Position numbers and translations under genes: made by a program
Notes under the pieces: generated by a model
Databases searched by the model: none
Told to the model about the DNA's origin: nothing
The model's input: the letters and a program-made list of their open reading frames with translations, nothing else
Shown here: piece after piece, positions 4,761 to 50,788 of the stretch
How positions within the stretch are numbered: position 1 is the stretch's first letter
How the letters are laid out: each line of letters begins with the position of its first letter
DNA from: Isotricha intestinalis
Lineage: Eukaryota; Ciliophora; Litostomatea; Vestibuliferida; Isotrichidae
Direction of reading: 5' to 3'
DNA: 64,000 nucleotides
Assembly: GCA_023807065.1 (NCBI GenBank)
Contig: JAJJLU010003488.1
Location: 1-64,000 of the forward strand

Positions 4761-6167
4761 ATGGGGAATTGTAATTCTATCATAGATTATGATTTAATCT
4801 CTCAAGGACAAAATTCAATTTTTCAAATAGATTCAAATAATGAATTAGGATTTTTTTGCTTAATTGAAGAAAAGTTTAAAACATTAATAACAAATTTTGA
4901 TGTTTCTCAAAATATTAATAATTTAATTAATGTAAAAATAAATTTATGCAATAAACAAAAAAAAAATATTGAAATTAATGAATTAAGGTTTATTTGTTAT
5001 GACCAAAATCTAAATTATACGTGTATTGAAATTTTTGAAGAAGATGATATAAATAATTTTTTTAAAGTTGATTTCAATTATAAAATTTTAGAAGATAAAA
5101 AAATTTTTTTATTTCAAAGATTTAAAAGATTAATTGTAAAAGAAAACAAATTTAAATTAGTAAATGATGAAATATTAATATCTAAACCTTGCAATAATTT
5201 TCTACCTCCTATTTTAAATGAAAAAAATAAGGAATTAATTGGAATTTTTCAAAATAACAAAGGAATTTTAATTAAAAAAATTGTGGATGATATTTTAGAA
5301 AAGAAAAAAAATAAATATTTAAATTATATTGTTTGTGAATATGAAATTCAAAAAGAAAAATTAAATGAAGAAATACAAATAATAAATTTTGATGAAGATA
5401 ATAAAAAAGAAATAGAAGAAAAATGTATAATATTTATAAATAAAAAAAAAACAAAATTATTTTCTTTTAAACATAAATTGGATAAAGAAGGAAAAAATGA
5501 AATAATAATTTTGTTTAAAAAAAATTTAATAAATATGAAAAAATTATTTTCTGAATGTATTTATTTACATAGTATAAATTTTGAATATTTTAAATCGAAT
5601 GATATAATAAATATGAGTGAATTATTTTATAAATGTAATTCTATAAAAAAAATAGATTTTTCAAATTTTAATACAAAAAAAGTAAAAGATATGAGTTGGA
5701 TGTTTTATGAATGTAAAAATTTAAAAGAAATAAATTTATCAAAGTTTAACACAGAAAATATTTCTGATATAAGTTTTATGTTTCAAGGATGCGAAAATTT
5801 AGAAAATATAGATTTATCTAATTTTATAACTAAAAATCTTGTAGAAATGAAAAGTTTATTCTATAATTGTAGAAATTTAAAAAATGTTAATTTATCTTCT
5901 TTTAATACTGAAAATGTTGAAGATATAAGTTGTATGTTTTCTAATTGTATTTCTTTAGTTAATTTAGATTTAAATCATTTTAGAACACATAATGTGAAAA
6001 AAATTAATTGGATGTTTTATAAATGTTTAAAATTACAAAATTTAAATATTAAATATTTTAATTTAGAAAAAATCGAAGAAGATTATAAAGAAATTTTTTA
6101 TGGATTAAATGAAAAATGTAAAATTAATTGTGATAATTCAAACATTAAAAATATGTTAAGAGATTAA
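4761..6167 (+). CDS. Inactive trypsin-like domain fused to BspA/DUF285 repeats; predicted N-myristoylated
   Basis: 468 residues. The N-terminus MGNCNS fits an N-myristoylation signal (Gly2, Ser6) with an adjacent Cys4 that could be palmitoylated, so attachment to the inner face of a membrane is likely. Residues about 15-180 resemble a trypsin-like beta-barrel: LITNFDV at 42-48 sits where LITNxHV carries the catalytic His, and PCNNFLPPIL at 143-152 sits where a GxSGxP nucleophile loop is expected. Neither His nor Ser is present, so it should be proteolytically dead. Residues about 255-440 are about seven BspA-like/DUF285 repeats of 23-24 residues (MSWMFYECKNLKEINLSKFN and variants). That repeat type occurs in bacterial surface proteins and in anaerobic protists. 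The trypsin-fold assignment is inference; the repeats are certain. Confidence 0.8.
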   Translation: MGNCNSIIDYDLISQGQNSIFQIDSNNELGFFCLIEEKFKTLITNFDVSQNINNLINVKINLCNKQKKNIEINELRFICYDQNLNYTCIEIFEEDDINNFFKVDFNYKILEDKKIFLFQRFKRLIVKENKFKLVNDEILISKPCNNFLPPILNEKNKELIGIFQNNKGILIKKIVDDILEKKKNKYLNYIVCEYEIQKEKLNEEIQIINFDEDNKKEIEEKCIIFINKKKTKLFSFKHKLDKEGKNEIIILFKKNLINMKKLFSECIYLHSINFEYFKSNDIINMSELFYKCNSIKKIDFSNFNTKKVKDMSWMFYECKNLKEINLSKFNTENISDISFMFQGCENLENIDLSNFITKNLVEMKSLFYNCRNLKNVNLSSFNTENVEDISCMFSNCISLVNLDLNHFRTHNVKKINWMFYKCLKLQNLNIKYFNLEKIEEDYKEIFYGLNEKCKINCDNSNIKNMLRD

Positions 6168-24358: not shown

Positions 24359-27214
24359 ATGATTAAATTGAATAATATTTGGGAAAAATATAAAAAGATT
24401 CAATTAATTCATTGTGATAATGTAACAAGCGTATATAAGGCAAAAAATATATTAAATGAGGAATATGTAGTAATAAAGGAAATAAAAAAATTACAAAAAG
24501 ATAATTCCAAAATATTAAAAGAGATAAAAAATCTAAAAAAAATAAAATCAAAGAATATAGTATCATTAATAGATATAATAGAAAGTGAAAATTCATATTA
24601 TTTAATAATGGAATTATGTTATATGTCTCTCGAAGATTATTTAAAAATAAGAAAAGAACCTTTATCAATTGAAGAAATAAGAGAAATATTATTTCAAATA
24701 AATAAAGGTTTAAAAAAAATATTTGATAAAAAAATAAGTCATCAAAATTTAAAACTTTCAAATATATTATTATGTATGAATAAGAAGAATATAGAAACAA
24801 TAAACATAAAAATATCAGATATTGGATTAAATAAATTTTATAATGAAAAAAAAAAATCTAATACAATTTCGCCTGAAAATTTAAAAGGGGAATCAATTCT
24901 TATTTTAAGTGATTTATGGAGTTTAGGAATAATAATTTATTATATGTTATTTCATGAATATCCTTATAATAATGAAATAATTTCTCAAAAAGAATTAAAT
25001 GAAAAAATAAATAAAATTGAAGATAAAAATTTAAATGATTTACTTAAAAAAATGTTAATTATAAATATTGATGATAGAATATCTTGGGAAGAATATTTAT
25101 ATCATTCTTTCTTTAAATTGAATAATAAAATTAATTGTCCTTCTTTTAATATATTATGTGATAATCATTCTAAAAATTTAATTGCTTATTGTTCTACTTG
25201 TAAAAAAAATATATGTGAAATTTGCTTAAATAATTGTCCTGGAAATTCTCATAATGTTATTTTTTTTAAAAATATTGGATTATCTATAAAAGAAATTAAT
25301 CAATTTGAAAATTTAATTCATGAAATTGATGATAATATTAAAAATATTTATGAAAATAAAGAAAGAATAAAAGGGTTTCTTAATACTCTGAAAAATATCA
25401 ATGAGAATAATTTAATTTATGGAAATGATAATAAGAATAATTATAAATTAATTTCAATTCAATATTTAAGTATTATGAAAGAAAAATTATTTCAAATGAA
25501 TGATTTTTCTATACCAAAAATTGGATGGGAATTAAGGTTATTAAATTAAAAAATATTTTAGAGTTATATATTTTTTACTTTTTCAGTGCGTTAATATTCA
25601 TTAATAATTTAGAATGTAAATTATTTACTTAAGTTACATGAGAATGTAAAATAAAAAATAATTTAGTGTGTAAAATATTTATTTAATAAAAGCATGTAAA
25701 ATTTAATAAAAATAATTAAATTAGTATGTATTTATAGACTTAAAAATAAAATAGCAAGTTAAAAGATTATTAACTTTAAAATAGTTTGTAAATATAATAA
25801 TTAAAATTTAAGTGGGTAATAAATTATTTATTAAAATAAAGAGAGTAATAAAAATAATAATAAATAAAGGGTGTATTTTATTTATTCATATTTTAAAGCA
25901 AGTTAAATAGATATTAAAATAAAAATATATAGAATGTAAAATAAGAAATAACATAAGAAAGTAATAATAAAATAAAAGTATATTATAGCCTGTGAAAAAT
26001 TGAATTAATGATTTTTAGGAATTAAGAAAAGTTTTTTAATTATTATAGAGAGTATGAAAATCAATTAATGTTTATTGAATATATGAAAAAAATTTTTTAT
26101 TTTATTAGAAAGTAAATGTTATATTTATTTTTAGGATGAAAGATAATATTTAAAAAAAATAGTTTGTCAAATATAATTATTAAATCTTTATAGTTTGTAA
26201 TATTTTAATAATTTGATTATAGACTGTAAACATAATATTAATTAATTATAGTATGAAAGAAAAATTTTTTAATATATAGCAAATACAATATATATTTTTT
26301 ATTTATTCTAGTGGATAAAATAAAAATATAACATTTATAAGATGTCAATATAATAAATTAATTTTAGGAAGTTTATTAAAATTAGATAATTTATAGATAG
26401 TAAAATAACCAAAAATAATTACTAAAAGGATGTAATATGTTTTATTTATTATAGGAAGTAAAATAATTATTCATAAATTAAGTATATAAGATATTTTTTT
26501 AAATTCCAATAATATATAAGAATTTTCTTAATAAAGTTTAATATGTATAATTATATCATTTATTAATATTAGTCAGTAAAATAACAATTATTAATTTATT
26601 TTAGTATGTTTAATTATATCAATAATATAAATTATTGATAGGGAGTAAAATATTAATTAATTATAGTGGGTAAGATTTTAATTGAATTATTATAATTAAA
26701 GAAAGTTAAAATAATTAATTGAAGAAAGTTTTAAATTATATTTATAAATTTTAGTGTGTAAACATTAATATATTATTAATAATTAGCAAGTAAAATGATT
26801 TTATTATAATTTTAGTTTGTAAAATAATTGTATTTATGAATCATAGAAAGTCATATATAATCATTATTTAAAAAGATTGTATTCTTATTTTATATTTTTT
26901 TAGTGTGTAATATTTTAATTTTTTGATTGAAATAGAGAGTATAAAAAATAATAATATTTTAGGATGTAATTTAAAAATTATTATTAATTTTCGAAGAATG
27001 TATAATTTTGTTTTTATTTAGAAAGTAATAATATTTATAATATAGCCTGTATATAAATAAATAGATAATTTAGTGTGTATTTTAATATTAAAATTAGCCT
27101 AATGTAAGATATAATTTTATTTTAGTGTGTAATGGTATTTATAATTTAAGGGAGTAAACCATATCATATAATAATATTTAGGTTGAGACAAAAGAATTAA
27201 ATCTTATGAGTTAA
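24359..27214 (+). CDS. Pseudokinase with B-box, whose C-terminal tail is encoded by about 50 single-codon exons
   Basis: Exon 1 (24359-25536, 392 codons) is a protein-kinase fold followed by a B-box. Lys40 (VVIK) and the DxG motif (Asp154-Ile-Gly156) are present, but the catalytic loop is HQN at 128-130 instead of HRD, so the base Asp is lost and activity is doubtful. SPENL (171) and DLWSLG (185) are normal. The B-box at 267-299 has Cys267, His270, Cys278, Cys281, Cys286, Cys289 and His298. Read without splicing, the frame stops at 25547 after GWELRLLN. Splicing from 25537 through about 55 short introns adds 72 residues to a TAA at 27212-27214, total 464. The tail carries Cys at 394, 397, 439, 444, 450 and 453 (CNNCHYQF; KKCQFKIC; CPNCG), a probable zinc-binding module. 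Exon 1 is certain; the spliced tail is a strong inference. Confidence 0.8.
25537..27181 (+). other. Array of about 55 mini-introns separating single-codon (3-nt) exons
   Basis: Exons, in order: 25562 (A, 1 nt); TGC 25587; AAT 25613; AAT 25643; TGT 25667; CAT 25693; TAT 25725; CAA 25755; TTT 25785; TGG 25813; AGA 25842; GGT 25870; CAA 25899; AAT 25933; AAA 25958; CCT 25989; 12 nt at 26019-26030; AGA 26049; AAA 26109; [GAT 26135]; TTT 26163; TTT 26194; ACT 26223; [TAT 26252]; [CAA 26280]; [TGG 26312]; [ATG 26342]; GAA 26368; ATA 26397; GAT 26429; GAA 26455; [TAT 26483]; 15 nt at 26521-26535; TCA 26573; TAT 26605; GGA 26642; TGG 26667; AAA 26702; AAA 26725; TGT 26755; CAA 26787; TTT 26816; AAA 26847; ATT 26876; TGT 26904; AGA 26936; GAT 26963; AAT 26997; AAA 27022; CCT 27046; TGT 27074; 6 nt at 27098-27103; TGT 27126; GGA 27151; last exon 27182-27214. 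Brackets mark exons not followed by GT. Introns are mostly 20-35 nt (range 18-57), begin mainly GTA or GTT, all end AG and have almost no internal G or C. The first small exon could instead be 28 nt (25562-25589, also open), and AAT 25643 could be part of a 12-nt exon from 25634. Confidence 0.8.
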
Positions 27215-40801: not shown

Positions 40802-42574
40802 ATGGCATCAATAGGAATTGATTTAGGAACAACAAATTCATGTGTAGGAGTATGGGAAAATGGCAAAGTATCAATAGTGAAAAATAAAAAAGGAGGTCAA
40901 AGAACTAAATCAGTAGTATTTTTTACTAACGAAAAAGATAATTTAAAAGTAAGTATTGGAGAAAATGAAAATTTTAAATCATCCAATACAAAGAATAAAA
41001 TATATGATATTAAAAGAATAATAGGTAGAAATTTCAATGATGATTTTTTAAAGGAAGAAATGAAAAATTTATCATATGAATTAATTAAAAAACCAAATTC
41101 CAATTATCCATTAATAAAATTAGATGAAATATATTTAATGAATAAACCATTAGAATTACAATTAGAAATGATATCATCATTAATAATATCTCAATTAAAA
41201 GAAGATGTTGAGACTTATTTAGAAAAAGAAGTGAAAAATGTAGTAATAACAGTTCCAGCATATTTTAATGAATCACAAAGACAATGTACAAAAAATGCAT
41301 GTTTAATAGCAGGGTTTAAAGAAGTTAATATTATTAATGAACCTACTGCTGCTCTTATTTATTATATTAAGTATAATAAATTAAGAGGGAATAGAAATTA
41401 TATTATTATTGATTTAGGATCAGGTACTTTAGATACTTCAATTATTCATTTTTCTAATAATGAAATAACGGTTAAAGCTACTTGTGGAGATTGTACTTTT
41501 GGGGGAATAGATTTTACTTGGAAATTAGTCGATTTTGTTATAGAGCAAATTACAAAAAATAATAATGATAATGAATTTGAAGGTAAAAAAGTGAAAATTG
41601 ATGACAATTTAAAATTTAAACTATTTCAAAAATGTGAACAAGCTAAAATTGAATTATCATTTAAACTAGAGACTACAATTGAAATTAAAGAAGATTATGA
41701 TATTAAAATATCTAGGAGTGATTTTGAAGATGTTTGTAAAAATTTATTTGATTATTGTATTCCAATTTTAGAACAAGTAATCTTAGATTCTCAAATAAAA
41801 AAAGAAAATATTAATGATATTATTTTAACAGGAGGAACAACATTAATTCCAAAAATTCAAGAAAAAATAAAAACATTTTTTAATGGGAAACAATTATTAA
41901 ATGAAAACACAAAAAATAGTGTTTTTGAAACTGTTGCAAAGGGAGCAACATATATATCATATTTATTAGAAAATCATTTAACAAATTTTGGAATTTCACA
42001 AGTTGAAAATACTAAAGAAAGTTTAAAAATATATGATGTTATTCCTTTATCTTTAGGAATAGAAATAATGAATGAACAAATGTGTTTTATTGTAGAAAGA
42101 AACAGTAAAATTCCTATTAGTGTTATTAAAAGATTTGAAACTCTTTCTCAAAAAGAAATTATTATTAGAGTATATCAAGGTGAAATGATTAATGTTAAAG
42201 ATAATTTTTATATTGGAGAAATAATTATTCATAATATCGAATGTGAAGAAATTGATGTTACTTTTAATATTGATAATAATTCTATTTTAACTGTTTATGC
42301 TCAAGAAGTTGGAAAAGATAATTTTATAATATGTAAACAATTTGAAAATAAGTTAAAAGACAGTGATATTGAATTATATAATAATGTTATTAATAGAATT
42401 AAAGGTATTAAATTTAATTCTAAATATCATAAACATTCTTTAGAAGATGCTTCTTTAAGAAATAAACCTTTCATTTGCGACGTTTGCAACAATAAATATT
42501 CACCTAAAGAAAAACGTTTTAGATGTTATGAATGTGATTTTGATGTTTGTATAAAATGTAAAGAAACAGAATAA
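40802..42574 (+). CDS. Divergent Hsp70 with a C-terminal DC1-like zinc finger in place of the lid
   Basis: 590 residues. The ATPase domain (1-375) has IGIDLGTTNSCVGVWENGKV, VVITVPAYFNESQRQCTKNA, NEPTAAL, and an altered phosphate loop DLGSGTLDTSI (usually DLGGGTFDVS); GDCTFGGIDFT replaces GDTHLGGEDFD. The beta substrate-binding domain (about 390-520, VIPLSLGIEI, VYQGEM) is present. Instead of the alpha-helical lid, the last 50 residues (541-590) are a zinc finger with HxH, CDVC, RCYEC and CIKC, nearly the same module as in the RING protein at 45374-46147. Stress/housekeeping folding in the cytosol is inferred from the fold; the finger may direct clients or partners. Confidence 0.85.
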   Translation: MASIGIDLGTTNSCVGVWENGKVSIVKNKKGGQRTKSVVFFTNEKDNLKVSIGENENFKSSNTKNKIYDIKRIIGRNFNDDFLKEEMKNLSYELIKKPNSNYPLIKLDEIYLMNKPLELQLEMISSLIISQLKEDVETYLEKEVKNVVITVPAYFNESQRQCTKNACLIAGFKEVNIINEPTAALIYYIKYNKLRGNRNYIIIDLGSGTLDTSIIHFSNNEITVKATCGDCTFGGIDFTWKLVDFVIEQITKNNNDNEFEGKKVKIDDNLKFKLFQKCEQAKIELSFKLETTIEIKEDYDIKISRSDFEDVCKNLFDYCIPILEQVILDSQIKKENINDIILTGGTTLIPKIQEKIKTFFNGKQLLNENTKNSVFETVAKGATYISYLLENHLTNFGISQVENTKESLKIYDVIPLSLGIEIMNEQMCFIVERNSKIPISVIKRFETLSQKEIIIRVYQGEMINVKDNFYIGEIIIHNIECEEIDVTFNIDNNSILTVYAQEVGKDNFIICKQFENKLKDSDIELYNNVINRIKGIKFNSKYHKHSLEDASLRNKPFICDVCNNKYSPKEKRFRCYECDFDVCIKCKETE

Positions 42575-47114: not shown

Positions 47115-48896
47115 ATGGATGAAGATATTCCAATTGGAATAGATTTAGGAACAACATATTCATGTGTGGGAGTATTTAGAGGTAATAAAGTCGAGATAAT
47201 TCCAAATACTTCAGGAAACAACACTACTCCTTCAGTTGTAACATTTTCCAAAAAAATGTTAGTAGGAGATGAAGCCAAAGCACAAATAACAAAAGACTAC
47301 AAGAACACAATATATGATACTAAACGTTTAATTGGTCGTCAATTTGATGATCCAATTGTTCAAAAAGATATGAAGAATTGGCCATTTAAAGTAGAAAAAG
47401 ATCAAAAAACATCTCGTCCATTAATAAATGTAGAATTCAAAGGAAAAATAAAGAAATTTTACCCAGAAGATATTTCAGCAATTATTCTTCAATATATGAA
47501 AAATATAGCAGAAACTTATTTAGGAAGGAAAGTAACAAATGCAATAATAACAGTTCCAGCATATTTTAACGATGCTCAAAGACAAGCAACTAAAGATGCA
47601 GGAAGAATCGCAGGATTAAATGTTTTAAGAATGATTAATGAACCTACTTCTGCAGCTCTTGCTTATAGACTTTTTAATAAAGTTGAAGAAGATAAAAATG
47701 TTTTAGTTTTTGATTTAGGCGGAGGAACTTTTGATGTTTCTATTGTTAGTGTTGGAGAAGATGCATGTGAAGTTATTTCAACAAGAGGAGATACTCATTT
47801 AGGTGGAGGAGATTTTGATAATGAGTTAATGAATTATTGTATTCAGGAATTTAAAAATAATACTGGTGTTGATATTGAAAAGAATGAAAAAGCAAAAAGG
47901 AGATTAAAAAAGGAATGTGAAAAAGCAAAAATATTTTTATCATCTGCGAAAGAAACAACAATAGAATTAGATTCACTTGCTGAAGGAAAAGATTTAAATT
48001 TAGAAATAACAAGAGCATTATTTGAATCAAAAATTAAAAAATATTTGGATCAATGTATCCAATGTGTAAATGAAGCATTAAAAGATGCAAAATTTAAACA
48101 ATCTCAAATAGATGAAATAGTTTTAGTAGGTGGTTCATCAAAGATACCAATAGTACAACAAATGTTAAAAGATTATTTTGGTAAAGAGCCAAATAAATCA
48201 ATTCATCCTGATGAAGCAGTAGCATATGGAGCAGCATATCAAGCAGCATCAATTCAAGGTTTAATAAATGAAGAAGATGGTCTTGAACAATTAGTTCTAA
48301 TTGATGTTATACCTCTTTCTTTAGGTGTAGCTGTAGGAGGAGAAATTATGGATATTGTTGTTCCTAGAAATACTAAAATTCCTATTACTAATAAAAGTAA
48401 AACTTATGTTACTGCTGCTGATTATCAAGACAAAGTATTAATTGAAGTTTATCAAGGAGAGAGAGTTCAAGTCAAAGATAATTCATTTATTGGTGAATTT
48501 TTGGTTGAAGGACTTCAAAAGAAAAAAGCTGGAGAAGTTAGTATTAAAGTTAATTTTAACGTTGATGTTGATTCCATTTTAAATGTTAATGCTGAAGAAA
48601 TTGTTAAAGGGAAGAAAAAAGGTGAAGCAAGTAAAAATAAAATTCAAGTTAAGGAATATAAAAAAAATTTAAGTGATCAAGAAATTGAAAATAGAGTTGA
48701 ACAATTGAAAAATTTAACTGAAGAACAAAAAGAAAATGATTTAGCTACTGTTGAAAGAGTCAATTTACAAATGTTATGTTTGAAAATGATGTCTAATGAA
48801 AAAGCAAAAGAATATTATAATTGGAGTGTAAAAAATAAAAATGAAAGAAAAGAAGAGTATATAAAAAGAAGAAAAGAATTGGAGAATTTGAAATAA
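47115..48896 (+). CDS. Hsp70-family chaperone (DnaK-type), cytosolic-like
   Basis: 593 residues. All Hsp70 signatures are intact: IGIDLGTTYSCVGVFRGN, VFDLGGGTFDVSIVSVGE, VLVGGSSKIPIVQQMLKDYF, GDTHLGGGDFDNEL, NEPTSAALAY and the KxTIYDTKRLIGRQFDD segment. The SBD-beta domain (about 390-510) has VIPLSLGVAV and VYQGERVQVKDNS. It is shorter than usual (about 640): the lid is truncated and divergent, and there is no C-terminal EEVD, so Hop/CHIP-type TPR partners should not bind in the usual way. No signal peptide or organellar leader. This copy uses more C-ending codons than its neighbours, consistent with high expression. Confidence 0.95.
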   Translation: MDEDIPIGIDLGTTYSCVGVFRGNKVEIIPNTSGNNTTPSVVTFSKKMLVGDEAKAQITKDYKNTIYDTKRLIGRQFDDPIVQKDMKNWPFKVEKDQKTSRPLINVEFKGKIKKFYPEDISAIILQYMKNIAETYLGRKVTNAIITVPAYFNDAQRQATKDAGRIAGLNVLRMINEPTSAALAYRLFNKVEEDKNVLVFDLGGGTFDVSIVSVGEDACEVISTRGDTHLGGGDFDNELMNYCIQEFKNNTGVDIEKNEKAKRRLKKECEKAKIFLSSAKETTIELDSLAEGKDLNLEITRALFESKIKKYLDQCIQCVNEALKDAKFKQSQIDEIVLVGGSSKIPIVQQMLKDYFGKEPNKSIHPDEAVAYGAAYQAASIQGLINEEDGLEQLVLIDVIPLSLGVAVGGEIMDIVVPRNTKIPITNKSKTYVTAADYQDKVLIEVYQGERVQVKDNSFIGEFLVEGLQKKKAGEVSIKVNFNVDVDSILNVNAEEIVKGKKKGEASKNKIQVKEYKKNLSDQEIENRVEQLKNLTEEQKENDLATVERVNLQMLCLKMMSNEKAKEYYNWSVKNKNERKEEYIKRRKELENLK

Positions 48897-49000: not shown

Positions 49001-50788
49001 ATGTCATATATAGGAATAGATTTAGGAACAACAAATTCAAGTGTTGGATTATATGATGAGCAAAGTAATAAAGTTATTATTATTCCAAATGAAGAAGGAA
49101 AATTTTCAACTCCATCAATAGTTTCATTCACGGAAACAAATATATTAATAGGTAATGCTGCAAAAAATAATCTAACAAGAAATCCTTCAAATACAATATA
49201 TGATTTAAAACGTTTTATTGGAAGAACATTTAAAGATATGATTATTCAAGAAGATAAAGAATTTGTGACATATAAACTTGAAGATAATAATGGAGTTCCA
49301 ATAATAAAAATTGGGTATAAAAATAAATTAAGGGAAATGAAACCAGAAACAATAATAGCATTAATTCTTTCAAAAATGACAAAAATGGCGAAAGAATTTA
49401 AAAAAACAGAAATAAAAGATGCAATAATAACAGTTCCAGCACATTTTAATATTATTCAAAGACAAGCAACTAAAGATGCAGGAAGAATTGCAGGATTAAA
49501 TGTTTTAAGATTAATTAATGAACCTACTGCTGCTGCTATTACTTATAAATTACATAATGAATTTAAAGATAAAAGAAATGTATTAATATTTGATTTAGGT
49601 GGAGGAACTTTTGATGTCTCTATTGTTTATTTAGAGGGTGATATTATTGAAGTTAAATCTACTTATGGAGATCCTCATTTAGGAGGAGAAGATTTTGATG
49701 AAAATCTTATAAATTTTTGTATAAAGGAATTTGAAGAAGAAACTGGAATTAATATATCAAACAACGATAAATCAAAACAGAGGTTAAAAAAAGAAGTTGA
49801 AAGATTAAAAAAAATTTTATCATCTTCTGAAGAAGCATTATTAGAAATTGATAGTTTAGCAAATGAAAAAGATTTTTTATTATCAATTAATAAAGCTGAC
49901 TTTGAAAATATGAATTATGATTTGTTTAAAAGATGTATTGATTGTGTTGAAAAAGCTATTAAATATGCAAAACTTTCCAAAAAAGATATTAATGATATTG
50001 CTCTTGTTGGAATGTCTTCTAATATTCCTAAAATGAAAGAATTATTATTAAAGTTTTTTGAAAGAAAAGAAATGAATAAAGGTTTTAATATTAGTATAAA
50101 TCCAGAAACTGCAGTAGCATATGGTGCAGCATATCAAATTTATTCAGTTAAAAAAGGTTTGAATAATTTAATTCTTTCAGATATTATTTCTCAATCAATT
50201 AAAATAAATGTTAATGATAATGAAACAGAACTATTTCAAATAGGAACTAAAATTCCTATTCAAAAAATAATAAATTATATAATAGAAAAAGAAAAATTAT
50301 CAATCAAAGTTTTTCAAAAAATAATGACATATTCAAAAAAAAACAAATCTTCTTCTTCTTTTTATGAAGAAATAGGAGAATATATTATTGAAGGAAAAAA
50401 GAATACAAAAATTAAAGTAACTTTTATTATTACTGTTGATAATCTTTTTTGTTTAAGAGCAGAAGATTCTTCAGGAAAAAAAATTAAAATAATAGAAAAT
50501 CCAAATAAAAGACAATTAAATTTATTAGAAATTAAAGAAATGGAAAAAGAAGTTATTGAACTTAATAAAGATATTAAATATAAAGAAATTCTAACAAAAA
50601 TAAAAAATTATGTTATGGGATTATATTTAAAGAATAAAGATGATAAAATTAAAGATTTACTTGATTATATAAAACAAAATGAAAATAGTTTTGTTGATTT
50701 AAAAGTTATTATTGAAAAAAGTAAAGGACTATTTGAACTAAATGAAATTGAAAATTTAGATATAAATGATATTAAATTATTTATATAA
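49001..50788 (+). CDS. Divergent Hsp70-family protein
   Basis: 595 residues. The ATPase domain keeps IGIDLGTTNSSVGLYDEQ, FDLGGGTFDVSIVYLEGD and GDPHLGGEDFDENL, so ATP binding looks intact, but the usual VGGSxRIP loop reads VGMSSNIPKMKE. The substrate domain is strongly altered: ILSDIISQSIKINVN replaces VxPLSLGIE, and FQKIMTYSKKNK replaces VYQGER. Ends FVDLKVIIEKSKGLFE ... without EEVD. Probably a specialised co-chaperone or nucleotide-exchange-type Hsp70 relative rather than a general foldase; this is inference. Lies 104 bases after the canonical copy on the same strand, so it is likely an old tandem duplicate. Confidence 0.88.
   Translation: MSYIGIDLGTTNSSVGLYDEQSNKVIIIPNEEGKFSTPSIVSFTETNILIGNAAKNNLTRNPSNTIYDLKRFIGRTFKDMIIQEDKEFVTYKLEDNNGVPIIKIGYKNKLREMKPETIIALILSKMTKMAKEFKKTEIKDAIITVPAHFNIIQRQATKDAGRIAGLNVLRLINEPTAAAITYKLHNEFKDKRNVLIFDLGGGTFDVSIVYLEGDIIEVKSTYGDPHLGGEDFDENLINFCIKEFEEETGINISNNDKSKQRLKKEVERLKKILSSSEEALLEIDSLANEKDFLLSINKADFENMNYDLFKRCIDCVEKAIKYAKLSKKDINDIALVGMSSNIPKMKELLLKFFERKEMNKGFNISINPETAVAYGAAYQIYSVKKGLNNLILSDIISQSIKINVNDNETELFQIGTKIPIQKIINYIIEKEKLSIKVFQKIMTYSKKNKSSSSFYEEIGEYIIEGKKNTKIKVTFIITVDNLFCLRAEDSSGKKIKIIENPNKRQLNLLEIKEMEKEVIELNKDIKYKEILTKIKNYVMGLYLKNKDDKIKDLLDYIKQNENSFVDLKVIIEKSKGLFELNEIENLDINDIKLFI

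Follow-up and report, generated by a model that had tools for sequence, protein, structure and literature searches.

How finely can the coding sequence of a gene be divided and still yield a single protein? The question is raised by a locus of the ciliate Isotricha intestinalis, contained in a 64,000-nucleotide (nt) stretch of DNA referred to here as the window (NCBI GenBank assembly GCA_023807065.1, contig JAJJLU010003488.1, positions 1 to 64,000). On the plus strand of the window an open reading frame (ORF; 24359-25549) leads into an array, 25537-27214, in which AG-NNN-GT units recur between short spacers. A preliminary description of this DNA had read the central triplets as single-codon exons and the spacers as introns. 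The comparisons presented here, all drawn from genomic sequence, make it highly probable that this is a macronuclear gene spliced codon by codon, in which removal of about 56 spliceosomal introns would give a kinase-like/B-box protein a C-terminal double CxxC tail. The periodicity is real. AG-NNN-GT is found 93 times on the plus strand of the window, 44 times within 25585-27155, where the spacing is mostly 23-37 bases. The segment 25537-27214 holds 44 units, with 36 adjacent pairs 23-35 bases apart; across 1,000 dinucleotide-preserving shuffles of this segment, units averaged 4.7 (maximum 14) and spacings of 23-35 averaged 0.1 (maximum 2).

Two lines of evidence that the triplets are codons are independent of the decoder used to assign exon boundaries, which was trained on GT-AG units and mildly favours G at donor position +5. 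These are naive triplet counts, in which the NNN between AG and GT are simply joined, and conservation across paralogues. Naive joining yields CNNCHYQFWRGQNKP for the window and CKKCYYQFWKGKYKP, KNCHYQFWKGENEP, CSKCKHQFWAGDEEP, and CRKCDHQFWKGNEEP for other arrays, with ICRDNKPC..CG, ICSD.EPC..CG, YICGDDEKC..CG, and similar strings near the array ends (contigs of the assembly and the arrays on them are labelled C plus a number, such as C826, C1616, or C2). Read in frame, the 40 naive triplets of the window contain no stop (4.1 expected from shuffled letters). Eleven zinc-type arrays, comprising 508 naive triplets, likewise contain none (52.6 expected from shuffled letters), with 13 and 70 in the other two frames. 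Stops do appear when the arrays of C506, C1606, and C1149 are read as naive triplets. For the seven arrays outside the zinc type, 175 triplets pooled, there are 22 stops as triplets, 13 in the third frame, and none when codons are split 2/1; among these C2a is stop-free in every frame and C506, with 6 triplets, in two. In the six of these seven that were decoded, the 2/1 frame extends the upstream ORF, as the decoder demands.

The B-box and coiled part of the window protein has 71 matches in its own genome, the window included, and 20 of the 70 others were retrieved. Nine of the 20 have an array behind the ORF, starting about 70 bases or less from its end; the remaining 11 keep an open frame, reaching 448-893 amino acids, and continue into different C-terminal regions. 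Eight zinc-type arrays spell homologous peptides of the form WELRC..C..QFW.G..P ... IC.D...CP.C, and nine aligned array tails are homologous, with L3, C5, C8, C65, P66, and C68 invariant. Over 26 aligned codons from eight arrays, 422 of 728 amino-acid pairs are identical (0.58, against 0.093 for shuffled columns). Seven of these 26 columns are set by the anchoring expressions of the blocks; with those columns removed, agreement falls to 226 of 532 pairs (0.425, against 0.087), 47 of the 226 through different codons, and codon differences at positions 1, 2, and 3 number 203, 120, and 219. The comparison omitted C1616 (second block absent), C21 (second block off anchor), and C281 (start undecoded). 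Across paralogues, introns from corresponding places are 0.708 identical and those from different places 0.704 (n = 364). Conservation of the codons and non-conservation of the spacers thus indicate protein-level selection on the former and not on the latter, save at their ends. By these comparisons the triplets are shown here to be protein-coding and conserved, which supports the single-codon exons originally proposed: the joined triplets persist in eight paralogous arrays, often through different codons, between spacers that are saturated. An alternative holds that the array is a non-coding tandem repeat, with the AG-NNN-GT core a binding or structural motif and the codons accidental. Such a repeat would fit the regular spacing and the near-identical spacers of C826 and C1616. 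It is at odds with homologous peptides in different arrays, with residues conserved via different codons, and with a stop-free frame that extends the upstream ORF in the 16 decoded arrays (which the decoder demands, although the naive stop counts point the same way). Unless triplet conservation has some unknown cause, the paralogue comparison already speaks against this reading, which is scarcely credible.

Other features recur among the arrays. All 10 decoded zinc-type arrays yielded a 1-nt exon and nine of them a 6-nt exon close to the end, and a decoder-free search for the pattern C / CP-x / C gave 10 places (control 0). The paired CxxC motifs of the tail suggest putative zinc binding. In Pfam searches with three tails, two gave zinc ribbons along with other families below the cut-off and the third gave no match, and a Protein Data Bank (PDB) profile search with the tail returned weak matches only, the best being L37Ae (0.0038 over 14 positions). 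The arrays of C506, C1149, and C72 (8-25 decoded introns) bridge a B-box-type exon and a long downstream exon; these downstream exons share homology, that of C1149 being 57% identical to that of C506 (E 1e-22) and 35% to that of C72 (2e-6).

How, then, would the window gene be assembled? Its long first exon (24359..25536, plus strand), which makes up the bulk of the coding length, ends ...TGG GAA TTA AG (...GWEL plus AG) and encodes a kinase-like domain, a B-box, and a coiled stretch, in that order; Pfam matches of the ORF at 24359-25549 are Pkinase (4.4e-39), PK_Tyr_Ser-Thr (1.3e-24), and zf-B_box (3.7e-5). By eye, the kinase domain has HQN and DIG at what we take to be the positions of HRD and DFG, and is therefore perhaps a pseudokinase. 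In the C826 paralogue HRD is retained, also by eye. The predicted first intron (25537..25561, GTTATT..TTAG, 25 nt) is in phase 2, and read-through of a retained copy reaches the stop TAA at 25547-25549, so that the protein would end a few residues past WEL. The next exon is corrected to a single nucleotide, the A at 25562, which completes AG/A (Arg) and shifts the introns from phase 2 to phase 0. The first conserved block (25587..25991) follows with 15 single-codon exons, C N N C H Y Q F W R G Q N K P, forming the putative first zinc knuckle; its introns are 21-31 nt long and every one is GT..AG. The variable middle (26019..26849), also of single-codon exons, holds all eight non-canonical introns of the array. 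Within it 26280-26343 is ambiguous, being mostly a 33-nt exon according to the decoder or, equally possibly, the triplets CAA, TGG, and GAT with AT donors. The second conserved block (26876..27153), I C R D N K P C (PN) C G, consists of single-codon exons and one 6-nt exon, CCTAAT, at 27098-27103, again with GT..AG introns throughout. The 33-nt last exon (27182..27214) encodes VETKELNLMS and closes at an in-frame TAA, 27212-27214, present as first described.

In total, 56 introns of about 26 nt (20-34 nt) are predicted within 25537..27181, 48 of them GT..AG. Besides the 1-nt exon, the decoding gives some 52 exons of three nt, the 6-nt exon, the doubtful 33-nt stretch, and the 33-nt last exon. 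The preliminary description listed exons of 12, 15, and 6 nt; those of 12 and 15 nt are perhaps triplets with non-canonical sites, and taking GAA/TTAAGA...ATAG as a site gives a 27-nt intron in place of an 18-nt one. The tail is stop-free as claimed, with its length revised from 72 to about 76 codons in this decoding.

The ends of the spacers bear on how they would be removed. In 16 decoded arrays, with 772 introns and 716 three-nt exons, 691 introns are GT..AG. The array introns are 20-37 nt long and run from GT-A to T-AG (GTA at the start, TAG or AAG at the end). Fifteen of the 16 arrays begin with a phase-2 intron (in C1606 it is the second intron that has this phase), and the zinc-type arrays reach phase 0 through the 1-nt exon. 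U6 scores 108 bits at C176 and C304, with no match in 14 prokaryote controls, and together with the GT(A)...AG ends it points to the spliceosome. We propose that the spliceosome would remove about 56 introns of about 26 nt from the pre-mRNA by intron definition, one intron after another from 5' to 3', since a 3-nt exon can hardly seat recognition complexes on both of its sides. The spliced message would then carry the kinase/B-box frame into WELRC..C..QFW...IC.D...CP.CG. Coding triplets and non-coding spacers would fit equally well if the spacers were kept in the mRNA and ribosomes hopped over them, that is, if they were translated by programmed bypassing, as with the byp elements of yeast mitochondria. 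Splice-site-like spacer ends (GTA; TAG or AAG) would be needless for bypassing, U6 is present in the genome, and we know of no nuclear bypassing system of comparable density. Bypassing is accordingly very unlikely.

Several observations weigh against codon-by-codon splicing. The decoder bans stops and prefers 3-nt exons, so that decoded counts are not independent tests, and we infer splicing at the RNA level, and its order, from DNA, with junctions that are predicted. GT or AG is lacking in 81 of the 772 decoded introns (about 10%), and their exons are perhaps skipped or misplaced. In zinc-type arrays such introns lie mostly in the variable middle. A few fall in a conserved block; in C1946, for example, non-canonical introns 1 and 2 flank the first Cys codon. 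Removing about 56 introns per message, or 95 in C231, at good yield would be physiologically surprising. A search of 5.8 billion predicted proteins, with candidate lengths limited, gave no relative of the tail at E <= 10, and hence no cDNA-derived or intronless copy confirms it. Intronless copies were also sought in the organism's own genome, at E <= 0.001 with the C826 tail and at E <= 10 with the C1616 tail; both searches came back empty, an outcome that is uninformative. Donors other than GT, NNAAGA donors among them, have G at +5 in 47 of 62 cases, compared with 96 of 710 GT donors, a contrast somewhat inflated by the decoder's preference for +5 G. Either extended pairing compensates at these donors or their exons are on the way out, each loss deleting one residue only.

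Are the arrays, then, relics or silenced sequences, in which splicing is now mostly unproductive and the protein ends just past WELR? The non-canonical tenth of the introns would agree with this, and so would the metagenome proteins P0001-P0011 (412-437 amino acids), which match the B-box part; the four of these 11 that were read (P0001, P0002, P0006, and P0009) stop within about 20 residues past WELK, so that in other species or strains, too, the open frame breaks at about this point. Short database entries are also what an ORF caller would yield. Conserved cysteines, residues kept via different codons, and the lack of stops in 508 triplets argue for selection on the protein until recently, and both conserved blocks of the window are wholly GT..AG. 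Decay is thus very unlikely, and productive splicing is preferred. Homologues of P0002 were sought in viral contigs and none was found.

Ciliates eliminate many short AT-rich elements from their DNA, some of about 26-28 nt. The spacers might be internal eliminated sequences, germline-limited stretches cut out of the DNA itself during macronuclear development, with the assembly being of germline origin. The spacers end in GT..AG and not in a direct repeat, and removal at TA repeats would presumably leave 7-nt periods with TAG, contrary to the triplet frame. The telomere repeat (ATTGGGG)n / (CCCCAAT)n has 1,327 overlapping matches in the assembly (control 0) and, among the matches listed, lies at both ends of the array-bearing contigs C2 and C21, and of others too. 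The telomere repeat of Entodinium caudatum is also CCCCAAT (PMC6211341), and Muniziella cunhai is reported to have a CCCCAAT telomere, the standard code, and TAA as the commonest stop (PMC11316547). Of 19 window ORFs checked, 18 end in TAA and one in TGA. The assembly thus agrees with a rumen-type (trichostome) ciliate genome, the traits of which are (CCCCAAT)n telomeres, the standard code, and a preference for TAA. From the telomeres, which are as in Entodinium, the assembly is very probably macronuclear DNA of a trichostome ciliate. Excision of germline DNA is an unlikely cause of spacers in somatic DNA, and we consider that explanation highly improbable.

The arrays are also more widespread than first supposed. 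The preliminary description had considered the intron density a local property and had suggested a search of the whole assembly. When the 57.3-Mb assembly is searched for three units in succession, 279 matches appear, compared with 10 for the reversed pattern, and among the roughly 100 matches listed these lie on at least 18 contigs; the density is therefore not local to this gene. In C231 the decoding gives 91 one-codon exons and 95 introns, and the longest unbroken decoded run of such exons, 65, is in C826. The genes upstream of arrays differ: beside kinase/B-box genes there are an ORF in C18 with B-box-like cysteines by eye and no Pfam match, a 480-residue ORF in C21 whose first 400 residues have no Pfam match, and a trypsin-like peptidase in C2b (PF13365, 1.3e-6), which the ORF of C94 resembles without a Pfam match of its own. 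The peptidase-like genes of C2b and C94 contribute a second domain with the same fragmentation. Their arrays and that of C2a have codons split 2/1 throughout and CxxC ends of KCSKC and CCNKC. The codons of C1616 spell KIARWWFWLFGLMWFFILALGGFFPMIWYFSW, a membrane-like peptide with 3 of 32 residues polar; among 2,000 letter shuffles none equalled it in being both so apolar and free of stops. The decoded terminus of this array coincides with the contig end and is untrustworthy.

Where might so many introns have come from? The middle of C826 (42 units, 16-57) has introns that are 0.890 identical and codon letters that are 0.348 identical, and in C1616 (46 units) the values are 0.827 and 0.335. The window introns are not homogenised in this way (mean identity 0.672, 3 pairs >= 0.85). 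The C826 intron belongs to a 28-nt family, GTAAGATAATATTATTAATTAATTATAG, with 212 matches at <= 3 mismatches (control 0); the approximately 100 listed lie on at least 19 contigs, including C453, C515, C538, C826, C1306, C1349, C1364, C1460, C1668, C1705, C1925, and C1974. Copies are often in register every 31 nt, as checked in C826, C1925, and C1705. Several matches lie at contig ends, and contigs seem to break inside such arrays. In C1925, 24 of 27 codons between copies end in A (LPLKAALGLFGTLLE..), and the remaining three are TTT. The C1616 intron, by comparison, is private to that array, which holds 26 of its 30 matches (control 10). Near-identical introns beside unlike codons, found in C826, C1616, C1705, and C1925, where unlike peptides result, imply that introns have been copied or homogenised independently of codons. 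Tandem duplication of codon-intron units followed by neutral drift was rejected as the sole origin, the introns of C826 and C1616 being far more alike than the codons. Unit duplication occurs too: in C826 a 12-unit block is duplicated, by eye, and units with the same codon have introns that are a little more alike (a difference equalled in 0 to 8 of 500 shuffles), with mixed signs in C1616. Insertion of intron copies between existing codons and recombination that homogenises introns while selection keeps the codons would both fit. The introns of the conserved blocks are, judging by sequence, old and saturated. A single process inserting introns between all codons, as once suggested, is thus not upheld: intron positions in the conserved part are themselves conserved, and recent copying is confined to some stretches.

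Because each codon sits between short and often near-identical introns, these genes might behave as sets of codon cassettes, in which recombination or intron copying adds, deletes, duplicates, or shuffles single residues without frameshift, skipping drops codons singly, and the loop between the CxxC knuckles is diversified. The near-identical introns around dissimilar codon letters in C826, the 12-unit block duplicated there, and the unlike peptides of C826, C1616, C1705, and C1925 would fit such behaviour. This is a speculative and, on balance, doubtful extension of the splicing model; if true, it would be a protein-diversity system at single-codon resolution.

Some of these features have partial precedents. 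Schistosoma micro-exon genes (MEGs) have exons of 3-81 bp, introns of up to 5 kbp, and secreted products of high variability (PMC10526429). The array genes resemble this superfamily, being largely made of very short exons whose skipping keeps the frame, and are not members of it: instead of mixed exon sizes and long introns they have dozens of consecutive one-codon exons with introns of about 26 nt, and they encode ciliate proteins of kinase/B-box, peptidase-like, and other kinds. A single-nucleotide exon is spliced in Arabidopsis APC11 (PMC4674806) and a 3-bp micro-exon in Drosophila hth (PMC7392893), isolated cases, whereas here long runs occur in many genes. Nyctotherus ovalis has comparable tiny GTA...TAG introns, and runs of tiny exons are unreported in the excerpt (PMC2633312). 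Introners, or introner-like elements, fill genomes with many near-identical introns (PMC4457414, PMC8469720). The 28-nt family is similar in its many near-identical copies and differs in that copies stand in register in arrays, typically every 31 nt and one codon apart; the C1616 intron differs further in its confinement to a single array. A literature search of titles and abstract openings, with preprints and most subscription papers outside its scope, found no long single-codon-exon runs, which is weak evidence of absence. If spliced as predicted, these genes show the most extreme exon fragmentation known to the authors, as in the 91 one-codon exons of C231. They would test the smallest exon that a spliceosome handles in series and intron definition with 26-nt introns, and arrays in which near-identical introns flank unlike codons offer a direct test of intron copying or homogenisation. 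Exons of this kind escape ORF callers, so many rumen-ciliate proteins may have misannotated ends. The arrays also pose the question of why a genome with otherwise seemingly uninterrupted genes keeps such patches; all 134 kinase-domain matches listed lack an inner stop, in a list that favours such genes.

Elsewhere in the window, three HSP70-family genes at 40802-42574, 47115-48896, and 49001-50788 lie close together in stretches of higher G+C (0.17-0.27 per kb), and the first (40802-42574) has a weak C1-like tail below the Pfam cut-off. At 5625-6062 there are 5.6 copies of a 78-bp (26-codon) repeat, which by eye we take to be a BspA-like leucine-rich repeat.

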